Assembly (NCBI RefSeq): GCF_000287675.1
Contig: NZ_ALJL01000023.1
Span: 62,001 to 126,000 of the forward strand
Direction: 5' to 3'
Length of the DNA stretch: 64,000 nucleotides
Source: Lachnoanaerobaculum sp. ICM7
GTDB lineage: Bacteria > Bacillota > Clostridia > Lachnospirales > Lachnospiraceae
Every line of letters starts with the position of its first letter. Positions within the stretch are counted from its first letter, which is position 1. The notes beneath the pieces are model-generated. The model saw only the letters and a program-made list of their open reading frames with translations. It ran no database searches and was not told the DNA's origin. A program made the position numbers and the translations under genes. Shown one piece after another: positions 3,961 to 56,601 of the stretch.

Positions 3961-3968
3961 ATTGTCTC

Positions 3969-4556: not shown

Positions 4557-4566
4557 TTTTACTCCT

Positions 4567-4602
4567 AAAAAATACCCCTCATTATTTTTATCAAATGAGG
4601 GG
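4567..4602 (-). terminator. Terminator after the AI-2E permease gene
   Basis: A 9-bp perfect stem (CCCCTCATT at 4575-4583, complement at 4594-4602), followed on the minus strand by TATTTTTT. It separates the permease gene from the 195-residue hypothetical gene. Confidence 0.85.
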
Positions 4603-4610
4603 CAAATAAA

Positions 4611-10999: not shown

Positions 11000-11001
11000 A
11001 T

Positions 11002-11673: not shown

Positions 11674-11677
11674 TAAA

Positions 11678-39440: not shown

Positions 39441-40097
39441 TTATAAATTATGATTTGAATCAACCGAATTTAGAGCCAACTCAAATTTCTCTATATTTCT
39501 TTCAACAAATACCAATACTTCCGTTCTGCTGTACATATCAAGCTTACCGAATATATTTGAAATATGTTTCTTTACAGTACCTTCAGATACAAACAAGGCC
39601 TCTGCAATTTTTGCATTTGTATAGCCCTCTCTTAAAAGCAATGCAACTTCCAGTTCTCTTTTTGTCAAAGTCTCTATCTTTTTTTCTTCTTCCGTAAAGC
39701 TTCCCATATTGTCAACCAGATTTGAAGAGTAGAACTTTCCTCCCCTATCAACAACTTTGAGGCTATACATAATATCGTCTATAAACGCATCCTTTAATAC
39801 ATACGCATCTATCCCGAGGTTTTTTGCTTTTACAAAGTCGCTTTCACTTGAAGATGAAGTTATTACAAATGTCTTTATAGCTTTATCATGTCTTTGTACC
39901 CACTCCAAAAACTCAAATCCGCTCTCATTATGTAAATGCAAATCTACAAATGCTATGTCTATATGCTTGTGCTCTACCAAATCGATAGCTTCACCGACAG
40001 TGCCCGCCTGTAGAGTCTCCTCCTCAGGCTTATGAAGTTTTATAATTGATTCCAGTCCCTGTCTTGCAATAGGGTGATCGTCTAAAACAAGTACCAT
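39441..40097 (-). CDS. NarL/LuxR-type response regulator of the SipW locus
   Basis: A 218-residue regulator. The receiver domain has acidic DD (6-7) and phospho-Asp52 in FVDLHLH, and the LuxR helix-turn-helix lies at about 148-205 (TKRELEVALLLREGYTNAKIAEAL...). It is the partner of the adjacent kinase and probably controls the secreted-protein genes downstream, with which it is co-transcribed. Confidence 0.9.
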   Translation of the reverse strand: MVLVLDDHPIARQGLESIIKLHKPEEETLQAGTVGEAIDLVEHKHIDIAFVDLHLHNESGFEFLEWVQRHDKAIKTFVITSSSSESDFVKAKNLGIDAYVLKDAFIDDIMYSLKVVDRGGKFYSSNLVDNMGSFTEEEKKIETLTKRELEVALLLREGYTNAKIAEALFVSEGTVKKHISNIFGKLDMYSRTEVLVFVERNIEKFELALNSVDSNHNL

Positions 40098-40111
40098 ATT
40101 CCGTCCTCCTG

Positions 40112-41725
40112 TTATCTTGGTAAACTAAGTTTAACTCTAACGCCTTTTTTATCGTCATATACCACACTCAAATATCCTTTTAATAAAACGGCTATATTTC
40201 GCATATTTCTCAATCCGTTACCTTCTGAGAAGTTTTTATCCTCTCTTGAAAAACCTGTTCCGTCATCTTCTATCAAAAGCTCTACAGTATCGGATTGCAT
40301 TTTTAATTCTATATTTATATTTTTTGACTTGCCATGTTTTATAGCATTATTCACAGCCTCACATGCAACTCTGTATAGAGCTATCTTTTGCGCTATCTTT
40401 ATATAATCCGCTTCTTCATCCAAATTTAAATTTATCTTTACATCATTAAGCCTTTCAAGTTCCTCCATATATGCATATAGCGCATGAATAAATGTATTTA
40501 TATTATCCTTGAATCTTTTTCCGTAGATACTTTCTCTAAGTTCCGCCATCGTGCTCTCCACTGATTTTTTCAGCATCTGTATAGACTCTATTATCTCACC
40601 TTTTTCTATGGACTGCTCCGACATCTTTGCCTTGCTTTCCAAAACCGCCAGATTACAGGTGATTCCGAAAAGTTTTTGTATTACCGTGTCATGTATTTCA
40701 TTTGCTATACGATTTTGTTCCTCTACAGCTACATATCTTTCTATTTGGGCGTAGGTATCCAGATTATTGAATACCGTCTTTATCAACTGTAAGTAGAAAT
40801 CCTTTCCGTCATCATGCAACTCCGATGCGCGCCTTATCAAAATACCGCTTAGATAATCAGACTCTCCTATTTTTATTAATTCATAAGTATTACCGTCCGA
40901 CTCTATATTTAATACTTCGATATTCTCACCATTACCGGAATCTTCATATTGAAACTTTGCCTTTGCCGATATATCATCATATACATCTTTTTCAATACCG
41001 CAGCTCTCTATAATCTCAGGAAAATCATCACGTTCAAATTTTACAAGCACAAATTCCCGATACAAATTGTTATTTCTAAGCAGCATTGACAGCTTTTCCA
41101 TGATTTTTTTCGGATCCGTCATTGCAAAAAGTCCAAAGCTTTCACTCAGCTCCGTCAACATTACAAAGGCATAATTGCTAAGTTCTTTTTCTTTATTCAA
41201 CTCCGTATTCAAGCTTTCAAGTTCTTCATTTTGCTTTCCTATGTATGCTACATAATAACGGATTATATAAAACTCACACATAAGCATACCCATGCCCAGA
41301 ATGATATTGATATCCTGATAAGACGAATTTTCTATACTCTTTCCGGCTATGGCACAAAATAAACACCAGATACATGCAATGAATGTCACTGTGATATTTT
41401 TGTCTAAAGCAACCATCAATAAAATACAGTTGACTTCATACCACAAATACGGACTGTTAAATCCTCCGCTAAGAAATATAAATATCCCATAAGCAAATAC
41501 TTCCAAAACGAACATAATCCTAAAGTGCATTCTGTTCTCACAGACCTTTTTATACAACCAGCAACTTAATGCACATGAGACTGACATTCCCAAAAAAATA
41601 ATCAGATTTATATTCTCTTTGTTATATACCGAAACCGAAATATAAAATACTGTTGATATTATAAAAGCCGCTATTCTCCACAATACGTTTATATTTATAT
41701 ATGTGGAGCATTCTTTTCCACCCAT
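40112..41725 (-). CDS. NarX/DegS-type sensor histidine kinase of the SipW locus
   Basis: The ATG at 41725 with GGGG upstream is preferred to a GTG at 41743. The 537-residue protein has about six membrane helices in the first 170 residues (MASE/7TM-like sensor) and a coiled linker. A GAF-like region (about 185-325) follows, then a HisKA_3 domain with the His in NEIHDTVIQK. It ends in an HATPase domain with EAVNNAIKHGK and a DDGTGF motif. The signal is sensed in or at the membrane, not by a large outside domain. Confidence 0.88.
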   Translation of the reverse strand: MGGKECSTYININVLWRIAAFIISTVFYISVSVYNKENINLIIFLGMSVSCALSCWLYKKVCENRMHFRIMFVLEVFAYGIFIFLSGGFNSPYLWYEVNCILLMVALDKNITVTFIACIWCLFCAIAGKSIENSSYQDINIILGMGMLMCEFYIIRYYVAYIGKQNEELESLNTELNKEKELSNYAFVMLTELSESFGLFAMTDPKKIMEKLSMLLRNNNLYREFVLVKFERDDFPEIIESCGIEKDVYDDISAKAKFQYEDSGNGENIEVLNIESDGNTYELIKIGESDYLSGILIRRASELHDDGKDFYLQLIKTVFNNLDTYAQIERYVAVEEQNRIANEIHDTVIQKLFGITCNLAVLESKAKMSEQSIEKGEIIESIQMLKKSVESTMAELRESIYGKRFKDNINTFIHALYAYMEELERLNDVKINLNLDEEADYIKIAQKIALYRVACEAVNNAIKHGKSKNINIELKMQSDTVELLIEDDGTGFSREDKNFSEGNGLRNMRNIAVLLKGYLSVVYDDKKGVRVKLSLPR

Positions 41726-41822
41726 TAAACCGTTCCCCTGCACAGCCCCTAGAGCCGTCTATTAAAATTTATTTAATTTATGATTTAAACTTTCTATTAC
41801 TTTCTTATTATATATCACTATA

Positions 41823-41935: not shown

Positions 41936-42379
41936 TTATCTGTTCATATCATATGAAATAAATGCGTCCACCTTCTCTTTAGAAGGGCTTCCTTCATCAA
42001 ATTCATTTGTAAGAAATGCATATATCAACTCTTCTCTGAGCTTTTCTCCAATAGTAAATGCACCCATACATGCTATATTGGCATTATTACTCAATACAGC
42101 TCTTTTGGCAGAATAAATATCTGAAATCAAAGCAGCATATGCTCCCTTTACTTTATTTGCAGCAATGGACATCCCCAAACCGGTACCACATAGCAGTATA
42201 CCTCTATCAAATTTTTTATTGGCAACCTGTTCTGCTACTTCTATCGCAACATTTGCATATATTGCATCATCACTTCCAAAATCTGTAACTTCACCCAAAT
42301 CGCTTTTTTTTATAAATTCTATTAATCTATATTTCTCTTCAACAGCATTTGGATCTGAACCTATAGCTATTTTCATCAT
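41936..42379 (-). CDS. RpiB/LacAB-family sugar-phosphate isomerase
   Basis: A 147-residue isomerase of the RpiB family. The active-site Cys64 lies in LLCGTGLGMS. The family's SDH and HND His residues are replaced (SDPNA near 8-12; SNNAN near 97-101), suggesting a substrate other than ribose 5-phosphate. Its operon with a DhaK-type kinase recalls D-erythrulose- or tetrose-4-phosphate isomerases of tetritol pathways (DerI/EryI), which is an inference. Its start abuts the kinase stop. Confidence 0.8.
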   Translation of the reverse strand: MMKIAIGSDPNAVEEKYRLIEFIKKSDLGEVTDFGSDDAIYANVAIEVAEQVANKKFDRGILLCGTGLGMSIAANKVKGAYAALISDIYSAKRAVLSNNANIACMGAFTIGEKLREELIYAFLTNEFDEGSPSKEKVDAFISYDMNR

Positions 42380-44128
42380 CTATACCTCCAATTTCCCTTC
42401 AACAAATTCTCTCATGCCTTGTATTATCAAATATACTGATGTTGCTCCTGCATCTTGGAATCCAACTGCCCTCTCGCCTAAAGACTTAGCTCTTCCAAAT
42501 TTAGCCACATATTTCTTTGTGTTTTCTACACCTGTTCTTGCAGCTTCCTCAGCAGCTACAAGCATTTCTAATAACCCTTTATCGGCATTATTCTTCATTG
42601 TTATAACTACAGGATGCAATGCATCTACCATTGTTTTATCGCCAAGCCCTGCATGCCCTATCTCAACCACGGAATTTAAACTCTTTTCTTCCATATCAGC
42701 CAAATCAAATGCTGTTAAAGATGCTTTTGGTGCCATATCTTTAGCACCCGCTAAATACATACTTCCAAAAATCACTCCTGAAGCACCACCCATTGACATC
42801 AACATAGCATTACCTGCTTCTTCAAACAATTTATATACACTGTCTACACCATTTAGTTTATGTAATACTTTTTTTACTTCTTCCATTCCAAGCGCCATGC
42901 CTATACCATGGTCACCATCTCCTATCTTACTGTCTACTTCTGTCAAATATGGCTTATTGGATATTATTTTATTTGCAATGTAAAGTAACATATTTTTTGT
43001 ATCACTTACATTTAGTGTTTCCAATACACCGGATTTACTTCTTTCAATTGACTCATTTTCAACATTTTCATTTTTCACTTCAAAGAAATTTTCGCTATCA
43101 TCAGACTCGGTTATCTGATTTACATAACTTCCCTTAGCATAATATGGTGAGAAACATGGCATATCATAGTATTTTTTAAGTTCTTCATCTATTCTGAATA
43201 CAGAAATTGAAAATCCTCCCATTTCCATACATGTACAATAAGAACCTATATCTGCATCATGTACCTTTAAACCATCTTTATGCATAAGTCTATATAAATT
43301 ATAATAAACTATATTTAATTCAAATAATGGCGTGGATCCGAGACCATTGATAAGGACACAAATCTCGTCTCCTTTTTTCAGGTCCATCTCTTTTTTTATT
43401 TCACTATACATCCTGTCTACTATGGTCTCAGCATCTACAAGTTTTGTTCTTTCAATTCCGGGCTCACCATGTAATCCCATTCCGTATTCCATCTCATCAT
43501 CTTCAAGCTCAAATGTTGGTTTATCATTTCCCGGAAGTGTTGCAGGACTTGTTGCTAACCCGATAGTACTCACATTATCTCTTGCTTTTGAAGTAATCCT
43601 ATGAACTTCCTCTAAAGATTCACCGGCGTCCGCTGCCGCACCGGCTATCTTAAATACAAATACATCTCCTGCAATTCCTCTTCTATCATATTTTCTTTCT
43701 TTGGGTGCGGATGAGAAATCATCTTGTACCCTTACGTTCTTCGTCTTAATACCTACACTATTACATAAATCTTCAGCCATATCGAAATTCAGGTTATCAC
43801 CGGCATAACATCCGTATATAAACAGAACGCCTTTTCTCTGGTCCACCTCTTTAGCTGTATCAAAAATCAACTTAGGATTTGGGGATGCACAAATATTTCC
43901 ACATGCTACGGCATCTGCCAAACCTGCTCCACAATATCCTATAAAAAGTGGCTCATGTCCGCTTCCACCACCTATAACGATGGCAACCTTATCTTTTCTA
44001 TGCCCTTTATATATAATAGAATTCTCATCTACCGGCTTTTTATAATATCTATTATAAGCATATACATATCCGGACAACATTTCTTTAACTGAATTACCAA
44101 TATCTTTATTCAAAATTTTTTTTGACAT
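42380..44128 (-). CDS. DhaKL-type (fused) dihydroxyacetone/tetrulose kinase
   Basis: A 582-residue two-domain kinase. The N-terminal DhaK domain (about 1-330) has GGGSGHEPLF and the substrate-binding His in MGLHGEPG. The C-terminal DhaL ATP-binding domain (about 370-575) has GDGDHGIGM, whose Asp residues bind Mg-ATP. The ATP-dependent fusion form phosphorylates dihydroxyacetone or short ketoses, including erythrulose. Gene context (RpiB-like, SIS, TIM-barrel isomerases and sugar transporter) favours a C4-C5 ketose over dihydroxyacetone. Confidence 0.88.
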   Translation of the reverse strand: MSKKILNKDIGNSVKEMLSGYVYAYNRYYKKPVDENSIIYKGHRKDKVAIVIGGGSGHEPLFIGYCGAGLADAVACGNICASPNPKLIFDTAKEVDQRKGVLFIYGCYAGDNLNFDMAEDLCNSVGIKTKNVRVQDDFSSAPKERKYDRRGIAGDVFVFKIAGAAADAGESLEEVHRITSKARDNVSTIGLATSPATLPGNDKPTFELEDDEMEYGMGLHGEPGIERTKLVDAETIVDRMYSEIKKEMDLKKGDEICVLINGLGSTPLFELNIVYYNLYRLMHKDGLKVHDADIGSYCTCMEMGGFSISVFRIDEELKKYYDMPCFSPYYAKGSYVNQITESDDSENFFEVKNENVENESIERSKSGVLETLNVSDTKNMLLYIANKIISNKPYLTEVDSKIGDGDHGIGMALGMEEVKKVLHKLNGVDSVYKLFEEAGNAMLMSMGGASGVIFGSMYLAGAKDMAPKASLTAFDLADMEEKSLNSVVEIGHAGLGDKTMVDALHPVVITMKNNADKGLLEMLVAAEEAARTGVENTKKYVAKFGRAKSLGERAVGFQDAGATSVYLIIQGMREFVEGKLEV

Positions 44129-44131
44129 ATA

Positions 44132-44692
44132 TTACTCCACATTCCTATGTCTCTTTGACATATCCTCAAATGTTAAATCACAACTGTCTACTATCATCAT
44201 TACTACCATATCAAGTACAATAAATAAAGTTTGTTCAAATAGGTTTCCCATTGGCTGAATCGATTCTACAACTTTATCTCTACCTCTATAAACACTTGCC
44301 GGAACGAATAGTACATCATCTGCCAGTTCTTTTACAGCACTCCCCGATTTCGATCCGGTAATCATATATATGTATCCGCCATTTTCTTTTGCCTTTTGGC
44401 AAATATACCTTATATGTCCAATCTCACCGTCTCCTAATGTAGCAATGAGCAAATCTCCTTTATTTATAGAAGGTGTAGTATCATCCCATATCCAATGTAT
44501 CTCTTTTCCCATATGCATGAGTCTCATAGCAAACGCTCTGGTTGCCATTCCCTCTCTACCCACACCAATTAAAAATATCCTATTATATTTTTTTACTGTA
44601 TCTATAAATCTATATAAGTCTTTTTCATCCAAACTTTCATATACTCTTCGGTGCTCTTGTAAAATATCCTCATATAACTTTTTATATTCCAT
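44132..44692 (-). CDS. SIS-domain sugar isomerase (hexulose-phosphate isomerase-like)
   Basis: A 186-residue SIS domain protein with the phosphosugar-binding loop in FLIGVGREGMA (near 39-49) and a TPSINKGDLLIATLGDGE stretch. The length and one-domain form match HxlB/GutQ-type isomerases. It may convert an aldose/ketose phosphate. It lies 3 bases from both neighbours, in the sugar operon. Confidence 0.8.
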   Translation of the reverse strand: MEYKKLYEDILQEHRRVYESLDEKDLYRFIDTVKKYNRIFLIGVGREGMATRAFAMRLMHMGKEIHWIWDDTTPSINKGDLLIATLGDGEIGHIRYICQKAKENGGYIYMITGSKSGSAVKELADDVLFVPASVYRGRDKVVESIQPMGNLFEQTLFIVLDMVVMMIVDSCDLTFEDMSKRHRNVE

Positions 44693-44695
44693 AGT

Positions 44696-45586
44696 TTACA
44701 CTCCAAGATTCTTATGTAAGAAGTCCATTGTTTTTTTCATGTTTTCAAAAACAATTTCATCCTTTTCTTCATAAGCTGTAACAACTTCCAAATATTGATA
44801 AATGTCATCCAAACCGGACTTTTTTGTGGCCTCTAAGATTTTCTCCGGCGTTATTATTCCATTTGGATTTGTAAAATCCCAATGCCTATCATATAGTCCA
44901 TCTGTTTGTTGTAAATGTATTCCACCTATATGTTTTTTACATTTTCCAAACCATATATCAATATCTGCTTCTTCTTTTAACAACGGATTAAATAATGCAT
45001 GTCCCCAATCAATCAATAACTTATATGGTATACTGCTTCCCGACAAATCTTCCATAAGTTTCAATGATGCTCCGGGTGAGTGCGGAAACTCTGTTTCCAA
45101 TGGAGTTGCTTCTATTTGTATCTCTTTTATTCCGCTTTCGGAAGCATATTCTGCCAAAACAAACAAGTATTCCAACAACTCCTTATATGCTTCCTCCCTT
45201 AATTTACTGTCGTATGAAACTTTATTTGACATACCGCCTACAGGACTTCCAATAATATCTGTACCAAGTTCAAGTGAAACATCTACAGCTCTTTTAAAGT
45301 ATTCTAACGCCAAATTTCTCTGTTCTTTTATCGGGCCCAAGAAATGTGGAAATGTGTATGCGGCATTTCCTGCAAAATTACTGTCTATCACCAATCCAAA
45401 GCTATTAAAAGCATCTCTGTACTGCCTGGCAATGCTGTTTCTTTCTTTTTCACTCCACCATGGGTCTATAAAGTCCCATGAGAATTGTATATGATCTATA
45501 TTAAAGTCTTCTTTACATATTTTTGCTAATATTTCAGGTTCCATCCACCTTTTTACAGCAAACGATAAGTTTAAACCCAGCTTCAT
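44696..45586 (-). CDS. Sugar phosphate isomerase/epimerase (TIM barrel, tetrulose/erythrulose type?)
   Basis: A 296-residue xylose-isomerase-like TIM barrel. Metal-ligand candidates are the Glu of IEATPLETE (near 150), Asp of LIDWGHA, His of GGIHLQQTDG, and the Glu of YLEVV. It overlaps the permease stop by 4 bases. A fourth sugar-isomerase-type enzyme in this regulon, so the incoming sugar probably needs several rearrangements. Confidence 0.78.
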   Translation of the reverse strand: MKLGLNLSFAVKRWMEPEILAKICKEDFNIDHIQFSWDFIDPWWSEKERNSIARQYRDAFNSFGLVIDSNFAGNAAYTFPHFLGPIKEQRNLALEYFKRAVDVSLELGTDIIGSPVGGMSNKVSYDSKLREEAYKELLEYLFVLAEYASESGIKEIQIEATPLETEFPHSPGASLKLMEDLSGSSIPYKLLIDWGHALFNPLLKEEADIDIWFGKCKKHIGGIHLQQTDGLYDRHWDFTNPNGIITPEKILEATKKSGLDDIYQYLEVVTAYEEKDEIVFENMKKTMDFLHKNLGV

Positions 45587-46560
45587 GATCTTGCCCTTCT
45601 TTCTCTAATTATTTCCATTATAGAACTGAAAGAAATTGCAAGAACCACTACTATTCCACTTACTGCTTGCTGCCAATATGCATTTACTCCAAATAATACT
45701 ATCATATTTGATATTATGCTTATAATAGCTGCACCTATTAATGCACCGGCCGGATTTCCAATACCTCCATTTAATGAAACACCACCTATAACTGATGCTG
45801 CAATTGAGTTCATTGGCCAGCTTTCACCTAATGTAGACTGTGCGGAGCCAAGTCTGCAAACGTACAACAATCCTGCCAATGACGATATCAAACCAACTGC
45901 AACGTAAATGAACACCCTTATTTTATCTACTTTTATACCCAAAATAGTTGCCGCTTCTCTTGAGTTACCTATAGCATATATATATCTACCTGTTTTAGTT
46001 TTCTTTACTAAAAATAACACAAGTAGCAATACTATTATACAAAAGATAAATGGCATAGGCACAATACCAAGGCTTCCTTTGCCTAAAAACTGAATTTGCT
46101 CCGGTATTCCTGTTATTGCCTTTCCCTTCGTTAAGACCAAGTTTATTCCACCATAAACTCCCTGCATACCTATTGTGGCAACCATTGAATTTAATCTAAG
46201 CTTTGTTATAATAAGTCCGTTTAGTAATCCAAAAAATATTCCAAATATTAAACCACATATAAGAGCTAACCAAGGATTTATTTTTGCATAAATCATAAGC
46301 ATTCCTGATAATATTCCACATAAGGTTGCTATCTTTCCAACTGATAAATCAAGTTCTCCCACTAAAAGTAATAAAGATTGTGCAATACCTATCATACCTA
46401 TTATAGCCAGATCTCTTAGTAAAGACTGAATATTATATACATCCAGAAAATATGGAGATCCTATACATGCAATAACAAACATTATAATTAAAACCATTCC
46501 GATGGCAGTCATATTGCTACGCTTAAATATATTTAAAATGCTATTTTTATTTTTCATCAC
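45583..46560 (-). CDS. Sugar ABC transporter permease (RbsC family)
   Basis: A 325-residue BPD_transp_2 permease of about ten helices with GELDLSVGK (near 67-75) and GGVSLNGGIGNPAG. It is partner to the ATPase directly upstream, whose coding region it overlaps by 14 bases. Confidence 0.92.
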   Translation of the reverse strand: MMKNKNSILNIFKRSNMTAIGMVLIIMFVIACIGSPYFLDVYNIQSLLRDLAIIGMIGIAQSLLLLVGELDLSVGKIATLCGILSGMLMIYAKINPWLALICGLIFGIFFGLLNGLIITKLRLNSMVATIGMQGVYGGINLVLTKGKAITGIPEQIQFLGKGSLGIVPMPFIFCIIVLLLVLFLVKKTKTGRYIYAIGNSREAATILGIKVDKIRVFIYVAVGLISSLAGLLYVCRLGSAQSTLGESWPMNSIAASVIGGVSLNGGIGNPAGALIGAAIISIISNMIVLFGVNAYWQQAVSGIVVVLAISFSSIMEIIRERRARS

Positions 46561-48055
46561 TTGTCACCTGTTTAACCTTATTTAATCCTATTATCGCTCC
46601 AAGTAGAGTTCTATCATCAGTTGATGCATCATATTCTCCTGCATTGTGGCCATCATAAAGAGCTATGATTCTATTGGAACACTTCATTATTTCTTCCATT
46701 TCCGAAGATATCATTATTATTCCTATTTGTTCCTCTTCTGCTAACCTTTTCATCAATTTATATATTTCAATCTTAGTTCCAACATCTATTCCTTTTGTCG
46801 GCTCATCAAATACTAAAACTTTAGGTTTTGCATTCATGGATCTTCCGATAATTACTTTTTGTTGATTTCCTCCACTTAAGAATTGTATCTGCTTATCTGC
46901 ATCAGGAGTTTTTATATCATATAATTTAATTATATCATCCGCCAAGTCTTGCTCTTTTGTTCTTGAAAGGCCAAGACCCGACCTTAAACTGTCTAAAGCA
47001 GTAATTGATATATTTTCTCTAATTGAAAGCATCGGAAGAATTCCATCTTTTTTTCTTTCTTCCGGTAAATAAATATACCCTTTAGACACGCTCCAATTAC
47101 TATCACCCTTTTTCCAAGGTTCACCTTCAAATATGATTTCACCGGAATATATAGGTAGTATTCCCAGAATAGCTTGCATTAACTCGCTCCTTCCGGCTCC
47201 TACCAAACCTGTAAATCCGAGTATCTCCCCTCTTCTCAAATTAAAACTGACATCATGGAATCTTTCACCACTCAGTTTTTTTACTTCCATAATATTTTCA
47301 TTGCTAACTTTTTCTGAATAAAACTTCTGATCAAGCACTTTTTCTCTACCTGTCATCTGCTTTACTATCCAGCTATCATCGACTTCGCTTATCTTTGCAT
47401 ATGATATCCTCTTACCATTTCTAAATACTGTAATTACATCACATAACTCAAATATTTCTTCAAGTTTATGAGAAATAAAAACAACAGCTTTATTCTCACT
47501 TGCTATCCTTTTAACAATATCAAATAATATTCTGGTGTCCTTAACAGTAAGGCTGGTGGTAGGTTCGTCCAACATAAGAACTTCATAATCTACATTCGAT
47601 ACGGCTCTTGCAATTTGAAGTAACTGCTGTGATGATACTGAAATATCTCTCACCAAGTCACTTGGACTTACCGGTATATTAAACTTCTCTAAAATAGGTA
47701 ACGCTTTTTTCCCTAATTCTCCTTGATTTATTGTGCCCTTAATATCAAATTTTTCAAAAGGCATAAACAAGTTTTCTGCAACAGTCATATGTTTAAACAG
47801 ATCTATCTCTTGCGGTACATACGCAACCTTTTTAAATAAGTCCTTATTTTTTATTGCATTTCTTCCTTCTACTAAAACTTCTCCTTCTTCAGGTGTATAT
47901 ACTCCTGTAAGGCATTTTATCAATGTACTCTTTCCGGCTCCGTTTTCTCCTATTACTGCATGTATTTCTCCAGGTTCAAATGAAATATCTACTGAGTCCA
48001 GAGCCAAAACCCCAGGAAATTTTTTACTTATATTTTTTGCTTCTAATACTGACAC
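46547..48055 (-). CDS. Sugar ABC transporter ATP-binding protein (RbsA family)
   Basis: A 502-residue tandem ATPase. The first domain has GENGAGKST and LMLDEPTTSL. The second has LSGGNQQKV and LVFDEPTKGID with GAGRSE in the P-loop position, as usual for RbsA. It contrasts with the degenerate paralogue at 49.3 kb. A hairpin separates it from the upstream binding-protein gene. Confidence 0.92.
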   Translation of the reverse strand: MSVLEAKNISKKFPGVLALDSVDISFEPGEIHAVIGENGAGKSTLIKCLTGVYTPEEGEVLVEGRNAIKNKDLFKKVAYVPQEIDLFKHMTVAENLFMPFEKFDIKGTINQGELGKKALPILEKFNIPVSPSDLVRDISVSSQQLLQIARAVSNVDYEVLMLDEPTTSLTVKDTRILFDIVKRIASENKAVVFISHKLEEIFELCDVITVFRNGKRISYAKISEVDDSWIVKQMTGREKVLDQKFYSEKVSNENIMEVKKLSGERFHDVSFNLRRGEILGFTGLVGAGRSELMQAILGILPIYSGEIIFEGEPWKKGDSNWSVSKGYIYLPEERKKDGILPMLSIRENISITALDSLRSGLGLSRTKEQDLADDIIKLYDIKTPDADKQIQFLSGGNQQKVIIGRSMNAKPKVLVFDEPTKGIDVGTKIEIYKLMKRLAEEEQIGIIMISSEMEEIMKCSNRIIALYDGHNAGEYDASTDDRTLLGAIIGLNKVKQVTSDEK

Positions 48056-48142: not shown

Positions 48143-49153
48143 CTATTTTCCTGATACTATTTGTTTCCACTCATCTATATTTGTAGCATCAATATAGCCA
48201 ATTCCTGTATCAATCTTCTTTGGAATTTCCATACCATTTGCTTTTTGCCACATCATAAGAACTGCGTATTCTCCCTGCATCTGTGGCATTGTTGATGATG
48301 TAGCTTGAATAGTATTTGGTACATAATCTAATATCTCAATAAGATTATCCATAGCTACGAACTTAACTGTACCTGACTTACCTGCTTCCTCTATAGCTGC
48401 TGCTATACCGGAACCACCGGCATCACAGTTTAAGAATCCTGCCAAATCAGGATTTGCGGCCAAAACTGCTGCTGCTTGAGTCTTTGCAGTTTCTATACTG
48501 TCATTATCAATTCCACCATCAATAACTTCAATATTAGGATACTTTTTCAATGCTTCTAAATGTGCTTTATATCTCTCTGCATGATTTGGAGCCGATGGTG
48601 CACCTTGCATAACTGCAACTTTTCCCTTCTCGCCGATCAACTCTGCCAGTTTATCTGCAGCAATTGTAGCTTGCTCCGAAAAATCATTTCCAACGCTTGT
48701 CAAATTACTTCCTTCCGGAGTTGGTGCATCAAAAAGTATTACCGGAATGCCTCTAGCCTCTATCTCCTCAATAACTGCCTTACTGCCCTCATAATCTACC
48801 GGGTCAAGGCAAATCCCATCCGGATGAGTTGCAGCCGCCTGCTCAAGTGTTGAGTTCTGCTCAGTCACATCTGCATTCTCAGGTGCGCGATAATCAATTG
48901 TTATTTTTCTTCCTGTTTGTGCTGAGAGCATATCTGCTTGTTTCTTAGCACCTATATTTACTTGATCAAACCATGCATGTACAGTCTTTGGAACTATAAC
49001 AAATGTCATATCTTTGCCCTCACCTGTAGCTGTTTGAGCAGCTTCGGTGTTAGCCCCTGTATTTTCTACCTTGCCCCCTGTATTTGAGCATCCTGCAAGA
49101 AGTGTGAATGTCAAACAACAACCAACGATTGCTCCCAAAATTCTTCTCTTCAT
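48143..49153 (-). CDS. Sugar ABC transporter substrate-binding lipoprotein (RbsB family)
   Basis: The ATG at 49153 follows GGGAGG, so the 12-residue longer reading is rejected. The 336-residue protein has a lipoprotein signal ending LLAGCS, an acidic linker, and a type I sugar-binding domain with a ligand-binding DPVDYEGS and FNCDAGGSG-like hinge. It resembles binding proteins for ribose, erythritol or similar polyols. It is the first gene of the uptake operon, just downstream of the YesMN-like regulator genes. Confidence 0.9.
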   Translation of the reverse strand: MKRRILGAIVGCCLTFTLLAGCSNTGGKVENTGANTEAAQTATGEGKDMTFVIVPKTVHAWFDQVNIGAKKQADMLSAQTGRKITIDYRAPENADVTEQNSTLEQAAATHPDGICLDPVDYEGSKAVIEEIEARGIPVILFDAPTPEGSNLTSVGNDFSEQATIAADKLAELIGEKGKVAVMQGAPSAPNHAERYKAHLEALKKYPNIEVIDGGIDNDSIETAKTQAAAVLAANPDLAGFLNCDAGGSGIAAAIEEAGKSGTVKFVAMDNLIEILDYVPNTIQATSSTMPQMQGEYAVLMMWQKANGMEIPKKIDTGIGYIDATNIDEWKQIVSGK

Positions 49154-49264
49154 TACTACCTCCCTACGTACTGTTTTATTTATATACAATATACTTATAA
49201 TATCACTCTAAAACAATGTGAATAAACAAAGAATTTGTGTGAGTAATTCAAGATAGTTTATCTT

Positions 49265-50677
49265 TTATATACATATAATTTCATCTGAAATGTCTTCCAT
49301 ATACTCAGTCCTTGATTTTATTACTATTACTGTCGTCCCCGCTTTAGCAAATTTTTTCAGATAATTTTTAATCAACGACAATCCATAGTTATCACAATAT
49401 ATAAACGGCTCAAATATAATAAAAACCTTTGGTCTAAAAATAAGCCATCTTTCCAGTGAAACACATATCTTTTGGTTTACATCTAATGCACTCACCAAAT
49501 CCGACTTATTTATATCCTTAGATTTTAATTCTTCAAATATAACCCTTTTTAATTCATATTGATTTATTAAATAATTAAGATTAGATATTTTGTTCAAAGA
49601 AGGTAATAAAAGATTATCTTCTATACTCATATTTTCAGCCAAAAAATCTCTCTCTCCTATCCCATCAACGGAAATTATTTTCTTCTCAATTAAATCTTGT
49701 ACACGTATAACTTTTTGATAGTATCCTTCTATAAAATATTTTTTATCTCTATTATTAACTCCGGATATAGCCTCAAAAAATTTATATCTATTATTATGAT
49801 CTTCTATTATAAAGCTATATACCTTTCCCTTTGAAAAACTATATGTTTCAATATTTTTACCGAAGAAATTCCCACTTACCGAATATACTTCATCATTACT
49901 ATGTAATCTATTATATGTATATACACTACTTAAACTACTTATTTTTTCATTCATAGTACTTCCAACTATAAAATTATATAATTTATCTATACCTTCGATA
50001 CTATCTTTTCTACATACTTTTACTATGCAACCCTTCTTGAAACAAACAAATATATCAGAACATTTATATGAAGCCATTTGTGAATATGTATTCAATATTA
50101 TTGTCATATCCTCTTTCATATTTGTTTTAATCCATTTTGAGAATAGTTCTATATATTCATATTTCATATTTGTAAACTCATCTTCAATTATCACAATCTT
50201 CTTATTTAGAATAATTGCTCTTATAAATTCTATCTGATACCTTGTCAGGACACCCAACTCCCCTACTTTTTTACTACCTGAAATATCTAACCCAAAATCT
50301 CCTAAAACCACCTCTATTCTCTTTATCATATTTCTTAAGTTATTTTTACTTAAGAACCATTTTCCCTCTCTCAAATATATATATTCAGCCACGGTCCAAT
50401 CATCTATTATCTTGTTTTGTAATGAGAATATGTATATATACTCTTTAATTTTTTTTGCACTATTCAATAGTTTATTATCAACAAAAAACACTCCTTCATA
50501 TTTCTTCTCGTCAATGTTGCCTTTAATAATCTTCAGAAAAATATCTCTGCCTGAATAATCTAAACCCGCAAGAGAATATATCATTCCACCAAAAAAAGAT
50601 ATTGAAGCATTATATAGTTTCCCCATGCTTTCTTTTTTCAAACTCAAATTTTTTACCTGAAACAAGATTTTCATCAT
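49265..50677 (-). CDS. Degenerate RbsA-like ABC protein (likely ATPase-dead) in a two-component operon
   Basis: A 470-residue tandem ABC-like protein. It has the RbsA length and domain order, but the first Walker A reads GLDYSGRD (38-45), without the Lys-Ser/Thr, and the second P-loop region has no match (IIEDHNNRYK). The first signature is ELGVLTRYQ rather than LSGGQ. The first Walker B is partly kept (VIIEDEF), and the second half keeps a trace in ALDVNQK and FIIFEPF. It shares a 4-base overlap with the sensor kinase gene. A binding or sensing role beside the kinase is more likely than transport. No permease adjoins it. Confidence 0.75.
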   Translation of the reverse strand: MMKILFQVKNLSLKKESMGKLYNASISFFGGMIYSLAGLDYSGRDIFLKIIKGNIDEKKYEGVFFVDNKLLNSAKKIKEYIYIFSLQNKIIDDWTVAEYIYLREGKWFLSKNNLRNMIKRIEVVLGDFGLDISGSKKVGELGVLTRYQIEFIRAIILNKKIVIIEDEFTNMKYEYIELFSKWIKTNMKEDMTIILNTYSQMASYKCSDIFVCFKKGCIVKVCRKDSIEGIDKLYNFIVGSTMNEKISSLSSVYTYNRLHSNDEVYSVSGNFFGKNIETYSFSKGKVYSFIIEDHNNRYKFFEAISGVNNRDKKYFIEGYYQKVIRVQDLIEKKIISVDGIGERDFLAENMSIEDNLLLPSLNKISNLNYLINQYELKRVIFEELKSKDINKSDLVSALDVNQKICVSLERWLIFRPKVFIIFEPFIYCDNYGLSLIKNYLKKFAKAGTTVIVIKSRTEYMEDISDEIICI

Positions 50678-51642
50678 AACTCATCCTCATAAGCTTTCAG
50701 CTGTATCGGTAGCAATATTTCAACATCTGTTCCTTGTCCAAAACTGCTATACACCGTTAACCCATAATCCTCTCCATACAGTAAATTAATTCTTTTATGT
50801 ATATTAGGTAAAGCGATTCCTGTATTATTTGAATTGGGATTATCTACTAACTTTCTATAGTCTCCTTCAAATATTCTTCTATTAAGTTCTTTTAGTTCCT
50901 CTACCTTCATTCCCCTTCCGTTGTCCATTATCATAATCATTAAATATTTTTCAATTAAGTTCACTTCTATCCTTACAACACCACCGTTACGTACTCCTTC
51001 AAGACCATGATAAATTGCATTTTCTACTATAGGTTGCAGAATAAGCCTTGGAACATAGCAATCATATACGTTTATGTCCTCTTCCCCTACTTCTATCTCC
51101 AAGTGAAATCGTCCCCTAAATCTATATTCCTGTATCTTCATATAGTTCTTAACATTTTCCAACTCATCTCTTAACCTGGACATATTTCCATTTTTACTTA
51201 TACTATATCTAAAAAAAGATCCTAATGTCGCTATCATATCTGCAACATTATCATCATCATTACATAATGCTTCTCCTCTTATTGAATCTAGCGTATTATA
51301 TAGAAAATGAGGATTTATTTGACTTTGTAATGCTGTCAATTCAGTTTGTTTATTAAAAATTTCAACGATATTTTTTTTGATTTTTTCATTTGTATATTTT
51401 TCTATATAATTTATCAGTTCATTACAAAAATCATTTTCCTTCAAATTATCCTCAAATACATCATTCATTGTATTTAACAGTCTTGAATATTCCAAAAAGG
51501 TTTTTAATAAATATAAAAAAACAGCAATTAGTATAAGTTCTTTGGTTATTTTAAAAAACACATTTGTACTATAGATGATTTCAGCAACACTAAGAACTAT
51601 AGCAATACCCACCATACATACAATTTTAATAAAAAATCTCAT
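50674..51642 (-). CDS. YesM/LytS-type sensor histidine kinase without a sensor domain
   Basis: A 322-residue kinase of the His_kinase (PF06580) class. It has two membrane helices (about 5-22 and 28-46) with almost no outside loop, a coiled segment, then the His in QINPHFLYNTLD. The ATPase domain has ENAIYHGLEG and DNGRGM. Most YesM kinases carry a large extracellular dCACHE domain; this one lacks it, so the signal must come through a partner, such as the co-transcribed RbsA-like protein or the binding protein. Confidence 0.85.
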   Translation of the reverse strand: MRFFIKIVCMVGIAIVLSVAEIIYSTNVFFKITKELILIAVFLYLLKTFLEYSRLLNTMNDVFEDNLKENDFCNELINYIEKYTNEKIKKNIVEIFNKQTELTALQSQINPHFLYNTLDSIRGEALCNDDDNVADMIATLGSFFRYSISKNGNMSRLRDELENVKNYMKIQEYRFRGRFHLEIEVGEEDINVYDCYVPRLILQPIVENAIYHGLEGVRNGGVVRIEVNLIEKYLMIMIMDNGRGMKVEELKELNRRIFEGDYRKLVDNPNSNNTGIALPNIHKRINLLYGEDYGLTVYSSFGQGTDVEILLPIQLKAYEDEL

Positions 51643-51652
51643 ATGGCTCCCT

Positions 51653-53233
51653 CTAAGAATGTATCTTTCTATACAAAGCCGGCTTTATTCCCACCGTCTT
51701 TTCAAATAGTTGGCTAAAGTATCTGGTATCTTTATAACCCACCTCACTCCCTATTGCTGCAATAGTATAATTTGTTTCTATTAATAAACTTTTCGCAGCA
51801 TCTATCCTTACTTTTATCAGATATGAAGAGAAGTTTAACCCAATTTCCTTTTTAAATAAACTACCCAAGTATATCGGGTTTAGATCTACTATCTCTGCCA
51901 TATCTTCAATAGTGATTTTTTCCCTATAATTGTCTTTAATATATGAAATCATAGTTCTTATAGGTTTTAATACCCGACCTTCCGATTTGCTTTTTATATA
52001 TTCCAAGCAATCTAATACATATTTTAATATAACTTTTTTACAATCGCTTAAATTACAACATGAATTAAGCAGCGATAATGCATCTCTATACTCTTCCTCT
52101 ATTTTTTCATCACTATAATCTTTAAATAGCCCATAAATCCGGTCATATATTTGATAAACAATATCCTCATTTTGTCCATCAGATATCTTTCTAAAAATCT
52201 CAGATAATATATACTTTATTTTTTCTATATCGAATGATTCCATACCTTTTTTTAATTCATCATTATATTCATTCATTATATCTACATATTCATTAGATGA
52301 ATTTACCCTATTTAAGTCCTCAAAATATATGACCCTATTAATTCCAATACTTAATCTTTTTTCTACAGTATAACGCGCTTCATTAATTGATATTTTTATA
52401 TCATTTAGCTCGCTCTTTTCATTACCTACTCCTATGGTTGCACGGTATCTTTCAAATCCTATTAAATATTCATTTATTTTGCTTAGAATAGCATTTAGTA
52501 TACTCCCTATAGACTTTGCTTCTTCCATGCTATAGTTAAATAAAAAGAATATATTCATAAATTCCTTATTACACCCTATGACTTCTCCCACATTTACCTC
52601 GAGGATTTTATTTACTATATCAACCACCTTGGCTACCGTTATACTATCCTGTCTTTTATAAACCTGGTCTATATTCTCATAATCCAACTTTATATTTATG
52701 GCTCTAAACAGCCTTGAATCTTTATTTAGAAAAATACTGTTATCATAATCATTATTTTCTATCATATCTTTCAAAATACTTGATTTAATTATCTTTTTAC
52801 TATTCTCAACTGTTTCTATAAGTCTTTTTTCTCTGGCTTCTTTGTTTTCAATTTCGCCAAGTATATTTATAACATCATCCAGAGCTTCGCTTAAGTCATC
52901 TTTATTTATAGGTTTTAGTACATAATGATCTATACCGTATTTCATTGCTTCTCTGGCATACTCAAACTCACGATATCCGCTTATGATAATATATTGAATT
53001 TTATTTGAAGTATCTCTTGTCTCCCTGATAAGATCCAGTCCTGAGACTCCGGGCATTCTTATATCGGTTATAACTATATCAGGAGTATTATTCTTAATGA
53101 AATTTATTGCATCTTCTCCATTGTCTAAAATACTCACACACTCTAAATTTTTCTCGTCCCATGCAATTAATTTATATATTAATTTACCAATAAAATATTC
53201 ATCGTCTACAATTAATACTTTCTTCTTTTCCAT
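51653..53233 (-). CDS. YesN-type response regulator with AraC-type DNA-binding domain
   Basis: A 526-residue regulator. The receiver domain has phospho-Asp57 in ITDIRMP. A long middle region (about 130-410) follows, with a degenerate cyclase-like or helical fold, and the AraC helix-turn-helix pair lies at about 425-524, ending with GYKDTRYFSQLFEKTVGIKP. It probably activates the adjacent sugar-uptake and catabolic genes. The start is 10 bases before the kinase's frame and follows a palindrome at 53271-53285. Confidence 0.9.
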   Translation of the reverse strand: MEKKKVLIVDDEYFIGKLIYKLIAWDEKNLECVSILDNGEDAINFIKNNTPDIVITDIRMPGVSGLDLIRETRDTSNKIQYIIISGYREFEYAREAMKYGIDHYVLKPINKDDLSEALDDVINILGEIENKEAREKRLIETVENSKKIIKSSILKDMIENNDYDNSIFLNKDSRLFRAINIKLDYENIDQVYKRQDSITVAKVVDIVNKILEVNVGEVIGCNKEFMNIFFLFNYSMEEAKSIGSILNAILSKINEYLIGFERYRATIGVGNEKSELNDIKISINEARYTVEKRLSIGINRVIYFEDLNRVNSSNEYVDIMNEYNDELKKGMESFDIEKIKYILSEIFRKISDGQNEDIVYQIYDRIYGLFKDYSDEKIEEEYRDALSLLNSCCNLSDCKKVILKYVLDCLEYIKSKSEGRVLKPIRTMISYIKDNYREKITIEDMAEIVDLNPIYLGSLFKKEIGLNFSSYLIKVRIDAAKSLLIETNYTIAAIGSEVGYKDTRYFSQLFEKTVGIKPALYRKIHS

Positions 53234-53431: not shown

Positions 53432-54226
53432 TTACATCACCTTTTTATTATGTTTTTTTAATGTATCTATGCTTTTAAATATAAGGGACGAAAACTGTTC
53501 CGCATTCCAAGCACTTCTTCCTACAAATAATCCATCAATATACTCTTGTGTAATTAATGAATCAGCATTCTGAGGATTAACACTACCACCATACAACACC
53601 GGAATTTCAAGTCCACATTCTCCAAAAATATCTATCAGACATTCTTTTATCACTTTATGTTTAGAATTAGCGTATTCCTCTGATGCCGGCTTACCATTTA
53701 CTCCAATTGCCCAAACAGGTTCATAAGCAATCCAAATTTTTTTAACTTCTTCTTTTCTTACACAATGAAGTCCCTTTATAAGTTGACTACGAAGCACCTC
53801 ATTGCTTATACCAAACTCCTTCTCATTCTCTGTTTCTCCAATACATAAAAGCATTGTAAAACCATGCTTTAAACCACAAAGAACCTTTTTATTCTCCTCT
53901 TCATCTGTTTCCCTAAATACATGCCTTCTCTCTGAATGGCCTACCATCACAAGTTTTACACTTATCTCATCAAGCATACGTGGTGAAATTTCGCCTGTGT
54001 ACTGTCCTTCTTCCTCCCATCCCATATTTTGTGCACCTATTCTTATTTTATCCTGTGAAACAGAATTAGTTGCACTTGGTAAAGATATATATGAAGGAAT
54101 AACAAAAAATTCATACTCTTCTCTATTTATTAATTCAGTTCCTTTCTCTAATTCCTTCAAATAATCTACAGTCTGTTGTATGTTTTTATACATTTTTAAG
54201 TTCGTTCCAAAATATACTTTTTTCAT
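53432..54226 (-). CDS. Triosephosphate isomerase paralogue (possibly tetrulose-phosphate isomerase)
   Basis: A 264-residue TIM-type isomerase with the active-site set Lys11 (TNLKMY), His97 (GHSERR) and Glu169 (AYEPVW), and the phosphate loop in LYGGSVNP. Glycolytic tpiA normally lies with gapA-pgk; this copy lies with araB-like, araD-like and sugar-uptake genes. Tetritol pathways use a TpiA paralogue (EryH/TpiA2) for L-3-tetrulose 4-phosphate, so that is a candidate role. The start follows the kinase stop by 82 bases. Confidence 0.85.
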   Translation of the reverse strand: MKKVYFGTNLKMYKNIQQTVDYLKELEKGTELINREEYEFFVIPSYISLPSATNSVSQDKIRIGAQNMGWEEEGQYTGEISPRMLDEISVKLVMVGHSERRHVFRETDEEENKKVLCGLKHGFTMLLCIGETENEKEFGISNEVLRSQLIKGLHCVRKEEVKKIWIAYEPVWAIGVNGKPASEEYANSKHKVIKECLIDIFGECGLEIPVLYGGSVNPQNADSLITQEYIDGLFVGRSAWNAEQFSSLIFKSIDTLKKHNKKVM

Positions 54227-54308
54227 AAGCTTATATCCTCTTTTTCATTATCATAATATAATTAAAATAAAAGTAGAATAATTATATTTATTAAATTTAG
54301 TATCACTA

Positions 54309-55901
54309 TTATTCAGCGAATTTTTCCACGCTAAACTTTTCAATATCTACAGCATTCAGATATCTCTGTGTAAAGGTCTTAAATCCTTCCACATCCTTTT
54401 CATCAGCCATAATTTCACTTCCGGTGTTTTTGTCAAAAATCTTATTAGACAGGAACTCATCTAAGCTGTACTTATCCGCCTGACTGACATATAATGCCAA
54501 CAATGCTATTCCCCACGCACCGCCTTCACTTGCAGTATCAAGCACTTCTACAGGAGCATTGATAGCTGCAGAAAGGTATCTTTGTCCGACTCCTTTTGTT
54601 TTGAACAGTCCTCCATGTCCCATCATTTTCTCTATCTTTACATTCTCTTTCTCTGTTAAGATATCAAGCCCCACTTTAACTGCTGTAAGTGAGCTGTATA
54701 AATGTGCTCTCATAAAGTTTGCCAGATTGAACTCACTCTTAGGGCTTCGTAAAAATAAAGGTCTTCCTTCATTTAGCTTCGTAATACCCTCTCCTGAAAA
54801 ATATCCGAATGACATCAGATTGCCACAGTCGGGACTACCGTTTAATGAATTTGTATAGAGTTTTTCAAACAATTCTCCATCTGAAATATTTATACCGAAA
54901 AGCTTTGAAAATTCTCTAAATAAGCCAACCCAGGCATTCAAATCACTTGTACCGTTATTTGCATGTGACATAGCCACAGGATATCCGTCCGGTGTAGTCA
55001 CCATGTCTATTTCCTCATAGTAATCATTAAGTTTCTTATCAAGTACAAGCATTGCAAACATACTTGTACCTGCAGACATATTTCCTGTGCCTTTTTTAAT
55101 AGAGTTGGTCGCTACCATTCCTGTACCTGCATCACCCTCCGGTGGGCAAAGTATACTTCCCTCTTGTAAGTCACCGTCTTTATCTAAAAGACTTGCACCC
55201 AACTTTGTGAGTACTCCGGCTCTTTGCCCTGCCGGCATTACCTTTGGCAATATCTCTCTTATCTTCCATGGAAATTTGTACTCTGCAATCTTTTCTTCAA
55301 AAATATCAAGCATTGATGCATCATAATCCATAGCCGTTGAATCTATGGGGAATATTCCGGAAGCATCGCCTATACCTATGTTCTTTTCACCCGTAAGCAT
55401 GTAGTGAATATATGATGACAATGTTGTAACAAAATTAAGCTTCTCTACATGCTCTTCTTTATCAAGTATTCTCTGATACAGATGTGCTATTGTCCATCTG
55501 AGCGGAATATTGAACTTAAAGCTTTCACTTAAATCCTTTGCAGCTTCTTCGGTATTTGAGTTTCTCCAAGTTTGAAAAGGAGCAAGCAAATTCATATCCT
55601 TATCAAATGCCATATATCCATGCATCATAGCACTTATACCCATGTATTTTATCTGCTTTATAGTCACTCCATACTTCTCTTTTATATCTGACTTTATACT
55701 TGTATAACAGCTTGAAAGTCCTAAGAGTATCTCATCAAGAGGATATGTCCAAATGCCCTCTATAAAGCTGTTTTCCCAATCATGTATACCTGTTCCCAGT
55801 ACTTCTCCGTTTTCATCAGTCAATACAGCTTTTATTCTTGTAGAGCCGAACTCAATTCCTAAGAATATATCTCCGGCTTCTATTATCTTTTTTACTTCCA
55901 T
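54309..55901 (-). CDS. FGGY-family carbohydrate kinase (ribulokinase/xylulokinase-like)
   Basis: The ATG at 55901 with AGAGGG upstream is chosen over a longer reading to 55937. The 530-residue protein has the FGGY layout: phosphate-1 motif LGIEFGSTRIKA (near 12-23), a hinge with GDAGTGMVATN near 260, and an ATP domain with GGLFKTKGVGQR and SEGGAWGIAL. Clostridia place such a kinase with araD for L-ribulose. The overlap with the araD-like gene's end supports that pentose role, but the substrate is not proven. Confidence 0.82.
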   Translation of the reverse strand: MEVKKIIEAGDIFLGIEFGSTRIKAVLTDENGEVLGTGIHDWENSFIEGIWTYPLDEILLGLSSCYTSIKSDIKEKYGVTIKQIKYMGISAMMHGYMAFDKDMNLLAPFQTWRNSNTEEAAKDLSESFKFNIPLRWTIAHLYQRILDKEEHVEKLNFVTTLSSYIHYMLTGEKNIGIGDASGIFPIDSTAMDYDASMLDIFEEKIAEYKFPWKIREILPKVMPAGQRAGVLTKLGASLLDKDGDLQEGSILCPPEGDAGTGMVATNSIKKGTGNMSAGTSMFAMLVLDKKLNDYYEEIDMVTTPDGYPVAMSHANNGTSDLNAWVGLFREFSKLFGINISDGELFEKLYTNSLNGSPDCGNLMSFGYFSGEGITKLNEGRPLFLRSPKSEFNLANFMRAHLYSSLTAVKVGLDILTEKENVKIEKMMGHGGLFKTKGVGQRYLSAAINAPVEVLDTASEGGAWGIALLALYVSQADKYSLDEFLSNKIFDKNTGSEIMADEKDVEGFKTFTQRYLNAVDIEKFSVEKFAE

Positions 55902-55908
55902 ATTCCCT

Positions 55909-56601
55909 CTAATTACCATAGTAGGCATTCTTACCATGCTTTCTCAAAAAATGCTTATCCTGTAAATATTTCGGCGCTTTCTTCGCATCCGGATTTATAC
56001 TTATTGCAAACAAATTCATTTTCGCAACTTCTTCCATTACCACTGCATTATGTACTGCCGTATATGCATCCTTGCCCCATGCAAAAGGGCCATGACTGTG
56101 ACATATACATCCGGGTATATATAAAGGATCAATCTTTCTATCCTTAAAGGTTTCCACTATAACTTTTCCGGTATTCAGTTCATAGTCCTCATCAAGTTCT
56201 TCCTTTGTAAGATGCCTTATACATGGAATATCTCCATAGAAATAGTCACATTGTGTGGTTCCCATACAGGCAATATCCACTCCTGCCTGTGCAAATCCCG
56301 TTGCATAGGGAGAATGTGTGTGTACAACCCCACCTATATCCTTAAAGTTTTGATACAGTATAAGATGCGTCTTTGTATCGGATGAAGGATTATATCTTCC
56401 TTCCACACGGTTGCCGTCAAGGTCCATTACCACCATATCCTCAGGTGTAAGTCTGTCATACTCTATTCCGCTTGGCTTTATTACAAAGTATTTTCCGCTT
56501 TCATCAATGCCCGATACATTTCCCCATGTAAATGTCACCAGACCATATTTTGGCAAAAGCATATTTGCCTCATATACCTCTTTTTTCAGTTTCTCCAGCA
56601 T
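55909..56601 (-). CDS. araD: L-ribulose-5-phosphate 4-epimerase
   Basis: A 230-residue class II aldolase-type epimerase. The zinc ligands are His94, His96 (VVHTHSPYA) and His170 (HSHGPFAWG), with catalytic Asp119 and Asp75 in the positions used by AraD. It links L-ribulose 5-phosphate to D-xylulose 5-phosphate. It ends 7 bases before the kinase's chosen start, so the two are co-transcribed, probably with the tpiA-like gene. Confidence 0.92.

Follow-up and report, generated by a model that had tools for sequence, protein, structure and literature searches.

Two-component regulatory systems coupled to transport are known, BceAB-BceS, PstSCAB-PhoU-PhoR and DctA-DcuS being described cases (PMC7828314; PMC6978683). 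Coupling through a binding protein, with regulators of the YesN type, is known as well (PMC10384115), as is the re-use of transporter folds as receptors (PMC11109136). The locus that we describe here, found in a stretch of 64,000 nucleotides from Lachnoanaerobaculum sp. ICM7 (henceforth the window), associates a YesN-type response regulator (RR) and a short histidine kinase (HK) with a third component of another kind, a tandem RbsA-like ABC protein that has lost its catalytic motifs and that we name pRbsA. As far as can be judged from sequences, many Clostridia of gut and mouth carry such a catalytically dead RbsA-like copy, almost always beside a sensor-less kinase.

The pRbsA reading frame coincides exactly with positions 49265-50677 of the minus strand and stays open for 470 codons. 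Its start codon and the stop codon of the kinase gene share 4 bp (ATGA, 50674-50677), an overlap already noticed in a first-pass annotation of this DNA. The same annotation saw no permease, which is correct for the gene next door only: the binding protein, a working RbsA and an RbsC permease all lie less than 4 kb downstream of pRbsA, on the same strand (Table 1). The ATG at 49153, placed after a purine-rich ribosome-binding site, is the likely start of the sugar-binding lipoprotein. A promoter scan returned fewer sites than were found in shuffled sequence. Genes for a Dak-type kinase, RpiB, SIS, TIM-family and xylose-isomerase-like proteins, an FGGY kinase and a class II aldolase surround the transporter (41936-45586 and 53432-56601). 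Assuming an analogy with the erythritol and erythrulose pathways, our guess from these catabolic genes would be that a tetrose or a related short sugar, or a tetritol, might be both substrate and inducer. A second two-component pair, made of a LuxR-type regulator and a multi-TM kinase, sits just downstream of the operon (39441-41743).

Table 1. Features of the pRbsA locus, with positions in the window
Feature	Positions	Strand	Description
pRbsA	49265..50677	-	tandem RbsA-like ABC protein, catalytic motifs lost, proposed signal adaptor, 470 aa
HK	50674..51642	-	short YesM/LytS-type histidine kinase, PF06580 + HATPase_c, without sensor domain, 322 aa
RR	51653..53233	-	YesN-type response regulator, receiver + AraC HTH, 526 aa
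Sugar-binding lipoprotein	48143..49189	-	Peripla_BP_4
RbsA	46547..48055	-	ATPase of the transporter, functional type: canonical Walker A + LSGGNQQK
RbsC-type permease	45583..46560	-	BPD_transp_2, proposed docking partner
Xylose-isomerase-like TIM barrel	44696..45586	-	operon catabolic gene
SIS-domain protein	44132..44692	-	operon catabolic gene
Dak1-Dak2 protein	42380..44128	-	fused dihydroxyacetone-kinase-like sugar kinase
RpiB/LacA-type isomerase	41936..42379	-	
Triosephosphate-isomerase family protein	53432..54226	-	upstream of the regulator genes

The tandem RbsA architecture initially proposed for 49265-50677 is borne out: pRbsA aligns over its full length with the real RbsA of the window (46547-48055), with 20% identity and E=4e-8 for the pair, and both of its halves match the RbsA-family models of NCBIfam. 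These matches are weak (77.7 bits at best, for a cut-off of 699), and the score on Pfam ABC_tran is 14.9 bits for a cut-off of 25. It may be remarked that the real RbsA, with 450 bits on the ribose model of NCBIfam, is also below the equivalog cut-offs of single sugars. As regards membership of pRbsA in the RbsA (CUT2) family, tandem ABC domains and full-length homology are there and the curated cut-off is missed. Origin by a recent duplication of the neighbouring RbsA is unsupported, the two proteins being only 20% identical. The Walker and signature motifs diverge in the alignment. In the Walker A motifs, GENGAGKST has become GLDYSGRDI in NBD1, where the P-loop lysine is lost (GLDYSGRD), and GLVGAGRSE has become IEDHNNRYK in NBD2; in Walker B, LDEPT is replaced by IEDEF (NBD1) and FDEPT by FEPF (NBD2); the NBD2 signature LSGGNQQK reads LDVNQKIC. 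The catalytic site, formed by the NBD1 Walker A and the LSGGQ-like signature of NBD2, is therefore absent, and the motif alignment agrees with the earlier statement that the window protein has kept neither ABC signature. The companion statement, that both Walker A motifs are lost, holds for the window protein and not for the class, since orthologues outside Lachnoanaerobaculum retain a P-loop remnant, GxxYSGKD, and 5 of the 64 pRbsAs compared below have a canonical NBD1 Walker A.

A structure predicted from 24 sequences shows a tandem NBD fold (pLDDT 77.7, pTM 0.54). When this model was submitted to Foldseek the top match was the DppD subunit of DppABCD, with tandem ABC ATPases among the best matches; VIA-align placed the first half of pRbsA on single ABC domains with Z about 21, the target list being one that tests only that half well. 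A sequence search of the PDB at E 1e-40 found no RbsA-like chain. The nearest named relative is Lachnoanaerobaculum orale, where pRbsA is 93% identical. Compared with this species, the pRbsA of the window has a dN/dS (Nei-Gojobori) of 0.124; the kinase (0.061) and the real RbsA (0.039) have lower values, the regulator a higher one (0.145). Hence pRbsA is under purifying selection, weaker than that on the RbsA of the transporter. A pseudogene or relic is ruled out by this value together with the conservation of the protein.

A protein search of an 84,980-species collection recovered at least 24 orthologous loci, a lower bound because the scan uses two sequence patterns. Outside the genus the identity of pRbsA falls to 23-36%. 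As far as contigs reach, the order RR-HK-pRbsA on one strand is found at 24/24 loci, recovered by a search in which the kinase played no part (at L043 the kinase ORF was identified through the kinase-based search introduced below). The first-pass annotation had called for a search for such triplets, with random placement of the gene away from the kinase as a refutation; the triplet recurs at every orthologous locus recovered independently of the kinase and random placement is seen at none, therefore this refutation fails. The 24/24 count also rules out a chance neighbour of the kinase. True orthologues are present in 8/299 and 10/397 of the genomes sampled in the family (counting that of the window itself), in 2/6 genomes sampled within the genus and, among 398 genomes sampled across the phylum, in the window's own genome only. 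They occur in other Lachnospiraceae and in one Spirochaetaceae bin, and the wider class extends to other families of Clostridia, which rules out a one-off of Lachnoanaerobaculum.

At most orthologous loci the genes after pRbsA are again those for the binding protein, RbsA, RbsC and sugar catabolism; at L067 regulator cassette and transporter are divergently oriented. In L064 (4458-9412) the cassette stands beside a different RbsABC-type transporter, then a gene that looks by eye like that of a methylthioribose kinase, so that the transporter looks to have been swapped and the signalling module kept. L051 carries two 441-aa ORFs with identical start sequence (3584-4909 and 10614-11939), one of them between pRbsA and the binding protein; this pair is probably a mobile element.

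The kinase of the window lacks a sensor domain; its two TM helices are joined by a loop some 5 aa long. By hydropathy alone, its L. orale counterpart (97% identical) has TM helices at 5-23 and 28-46, with the catalytic His at 112. A kinase-based search gave 40 further loci with short kinases, outside the orthologue set (L088-L107, L122, L128-L136, L151-L160), and 39 of these 40 sensor-less YesM-type kinases adjoin a pRbsA-like gene. In the single exception (L097, 7571-11030) the sole neighbour of ABC type is a lone NBD of 251 aa; it lies upstream of the regulator, and its P-loop (GDYGVTHST) is damaged. The pRbsAs of this wider class have 454-519 aa where complete and score 60-235 bits on an RbsA profile, against about 550-690 for real RbsAs; the incomplete one of L134 scores 46 bits. 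The orientation is constant except in L135. Hydropathy places the phosphorylated His of the short kinases at about 93-160 (about 55-70 in the shortest), mostly after two TM helices and a short loop, and reveals no extracytoplasmic domain; a single TM helix is predicted in the kinases of L088, L102 and L156, and none in those of L098, L099 and L151. Kinases of this build need a partner for their input.

Long YesM-type kinases (490-630 aa) provide the control. In the same genomes they mostly have about 140-280 aa between TM helices, and pRbsA is found with none of the 19 considered, or with 2/21 when two intermediates are counted. The association between kinase length and pRbsA has a Fisher p of about 1e-12 to 1e-14, 1e-12 being obtained with the intermediates taken as exceptions. 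These intermediates, L137 (3449-7908, kinase of 444 aa) and L161 (5115-10138, kinase of 565 aa), keep the extracytoplasmic region of the kinase; their RbsA-like partners, at 311 and 281 bits respectively, have a mostly intact NBD1 Walker A and damaged NBD2 motifs, so that from their sequences they look like early stages, that is, evolutionary intermediates. Several long kinases adjoin a second binding protein in place of pRbsA. In a tree of kinase cores, which has long branches, 32/33 short kinases fall with L097 and L137 in one clade (support 98/94), L122 standing outside the main short clade. As the short kinases make up essentially one clade, the HK-pRbsA pairing goes back to a single old association that later spread and did not arise dozens of times independently.

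The permease is the other partner to consider. In a set of 56 loci an RbsC-type permease is present in the fetched flank at 45, and the other 11 are all on stretches ended by the contig. Within 16 kb, no RbsC-type permease or RbsA was found at 2 of the 10 later short-kinase loci, L158 (6155-11461) and L159 (4725-9980), where RR-HK-pRbsA stand beside a gene resembling those of binding proteins and one for a large protein that contains a receiver; there pRbsA keeps a canonical NBD1 Walker A. In L099 (4509-9433) and L151 (7343-12143) the module is made up of RR, TM-less HK, pRbsA and a permease resembling RbsC (85-90 bits on BPD_transp_2). Neither RbsA nor a binding protein was recognised in their flanks, and the two modules are possible minimal receptor complexes. 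L156 (6524-15129) presents RR, HK, pRbsA, a diverged RbsC (73.9 bits) and a binding protein, then a complete RbsA-RbsC pair, and its sequence reads as a whole degenerate importer next to a working one. The permease subfamily of the window operon, looked for in 200 family genomes, occurs only where pRbsA is also present. Over 38 loci, pairwise distances of pRbsA correlate with those of RR (r=0.97), HK (0.94), RbsA (0.89) and RbsC (0.89), and both partial links in this comparison stay positive.

What the class has kept and lost was followed in 64 pRbsAs, set against 44 neighbouring real RbsAs and numbered on that of the window. In the NBD2 signature Gly395 remains in 1/64 and Gly396 in 0/64; the NBD2 Walker B Asp persists in 1/64, the Q-loop Gln in 6/64 and the H-loop His in 18/64. 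The NBD1 Walker A lysine is there in 45/64 and the full canonical motif in 5/64, so that nucleotide binding could matter. By contrast, the acidic residue 94 of the NBD1 post-Q-loop segment (TVAEN) is present in 63/64, and Asn348 of the matching NBD2 segment (LSIREN) in 64/64. From what is known of ABC importers we take these post-Q-loop segments to face the coupling helices of the permease. In MalK, for instance, mutations that suppress defects in the EAA loop of the permease lie immediately behind the Q-loop. Mean retention is 0.62 at the 7 docking columns, against 0.19 at 24 catalytic columns (p=0.001) and 0.28 at 124 other conserved columns (p=0.002). This pattern fits a protein that would still dock after losing hydrolysis, and the kept segments may in part be required for folding.

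Starting from the linkage to an input-less kinase and from catalytic decay, both of them observed, we infer that RR, HK and pRbsA constitute a three-component sugar sensor, the pseudo-ATPase docking on an RbsC-type permease and relaying its state to the kinase; we hold this to be somewhat on the probable side. The first-pass annotation had suggested docking on the sugar permease or on the kinase as a means of reporting transport activity; this idea is partly supported, in that all its genomic predictions are borne out. A duplicated RbsA would have lost its ATP-hydrolysis residues while keeping both segments through which the NBDs dock on the cytoplasmic coupling helices of RbsC. With docking segments kept and hydrolysis residues lost, pRbsA would sit under the permease of the operon, replacing RbsA or exchanging with it, and elsewhere under a dedicated permease paralogue. 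Once the binding protein, loaded with sugar, had engaged the permease, the resulting conformational change would be directed, via pRbsA, to a signal and not to transport. pRbsA would then signal to the cytoplasmic part of the short kinase, the YesN-type regulator would be phosphorylated, and the transporter and catabolic genes would be induced. Relaying to a kinase without sensor, pRbsA would thus take the place of the extracytoplasmic sensor domain of ordinary YesM kinases. In a broader formulation, to which we give an even chance, a dead ABC importer (RbsC-type permease and pseudo-ATPase, with a binding protein) would serve YesM-type kinases that lack an input of their own as a modular receptor in the membrane, its motor killed and separate copies serving the separate sugar systems of Clostridia.

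Yet pRbsA might be the partner of the kinase and not of the permease, namely a cytoplasmic receptor in which a nucleotide or a sugar phosphate would occupy the former NBD1 pocket and set HK activity. The P-loop lysine kept in 45/64 and the five full Walker A motifs would suit this idea, as would the co-divergence of pRbsA with HK and RR, stronger than with RbsC, and the lack of a nearby permease at L158 and L159. We nonetheless deem it unlikely: the window protein has no such lysine (GLDYSGRD), NBD1 motifs drift widely, the best-kept region is that of the docking segments, not the pocket, and an RbsC-like permease lies directly behind pRbsA in L099, L151 and L156. Docking kept with catalysis lost, in operons that mostly contain a working RbsA, is also what would be expected of a protein that regulates the transporter and not the kinase, the dead ATPase competing with RbsA for RbsC and throttling import. 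This appears quite improbable, because the constant neighbours of pRbsA are HK and RR, with overlap of the kinase gene, and not RbsA/RbsC, because an input-less or cytosolic kinase would have no other candidate input, and because L099 and L151 have no RbsA to compete against.

There is very little chance, in our opinion, that pRbsA is a weak or conditional ATPase energising a transporter. A few relatives do have a canonical NBD1 Walker A, and more motifs survive in the intermediates L137 and L161, but the composite site needs the NBD2 signature, where Gly396 is absent from 64/64 and Gly395 from 63/64, and most pRbsAs have lost Walker B, Q-loop and H-loop residues as well. As for a decaying relic within a regulator operon, the high divergence between genera (23-36% identity) would be in keeping with it, but a dN/dS of 0.124, frames intact throughout the class, invariant residues and a constant gene order make it scarcely credible.

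If the sensor built on permease, pRbsA and kinase is real, it would explain how the sensor-less YesM-type kinases of gut Clostridia, which form a large clade, receive their input, and it would predict the inducers of dozens of orphan two-component systems, each being the substrate of the neighbouring transporter. In the open-access literature searched, a dead importer ATPase is nowhere described as a coupling subunit; the first-pass annotation likewise knew of no description of such a signalling use of an ABC pseudo-enzyme, and we know of no earlier case of an ABC motor subunit duplicated, killed and kept as a signalling part. With RbsA, MglA and XylG (CUT2), pRbsA shares tandem NBDs, alignment over the full length and the post-Q-loop docking segments; it differs from them in having lost signature, Walker A, Walker B, Q-loop and H-loop residues, and in being linked to a kinase, not to a permease. 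Since pRbsAs pass by homology for ordinary ATPases of sugar transporters, the class is easily missed. In Escherichia coli, the importer ATPase subunit MalK doubles as a signalling protein, being active and directly inhibiting the transcription activator MalT. pRbsA would have in common with it the use of an importer ATPase-type subunit in signalling, unlike MalK, which is an active ATPase acting directly on an activator.

By hydropathy, the window kinase has the layout of BceS, with two N-terminal TM helices, a loop of less than about 25 aa and no sensor domain, around a PF06580 core instead. The kinase core of BceS is different from the PF06580 type. In the BceAB-BceS/BceR systems of Firmicutes, and with other intramembrane-sensing kinases coupled to ABC transporters, an ABC transporter drives a sensor-less kinase that has two TM helices and a short loop (PMC7828314; PMC6978683), much as would be the case for pRbsA. 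However, BceAB is an active transporter whose permease presumably binds the ligand through its large loop, whereas the pRbsA system would combine an importer with a separate dead NBD subunit, and its kinase is of the YesM/LytS type (PF06580), in some cases without TM helix, unlike BceS. PstSCAB-PhoU-PhoR of E. coli (PMC6978683) is similar in that an ABC importer signals through a non-transporting linker to a kinase without canonical periplasmic sensor. There the linker, PhoU, is an unrelated adaptor working with an active PstB, whereas pRbsA would be a dead copy of the transporter ATPase itself; neither the Pfam table nor the 25 best NCBIfam matches include PhoU for pRbsA, and both show ABC homology instead. 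Transceptors such as CbrA, Amt-HK and the 5TMR kinases (PMC11109136; PMC5764959) likewise use transporter-derived parts as receptors of histidine kinases, but with a membrane part fused to the kinase, while pRbsA is a separate cytoplasmic ATPase-like protein.

Finally, the XylFII-LytS-YesN and CuaD-CuaS-CuaR systems of Clostridia (PMC10384115) resemble the pRbsA system in that a YesN-type regulator and a kinase control a neighbouring sugar ABC transporter with the help of a transporter-derived third component. In XylFII and CuaD this component is a binding protein acting on the extracellular domain of the kinase; pRbsA, by contrast, would be a cytoplasmic dead ATPase serving a kinase without that domain. 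Loci resembling both types occur in the same genomes. In related genomes, L114, L115, L117 and L119 associate a long YesM-type kinase with an extra binding protein, as in the XylFII and CuaD systems. pRbsA and the extra binding protein thus read as two rival solutions to sugar sensing in one family.
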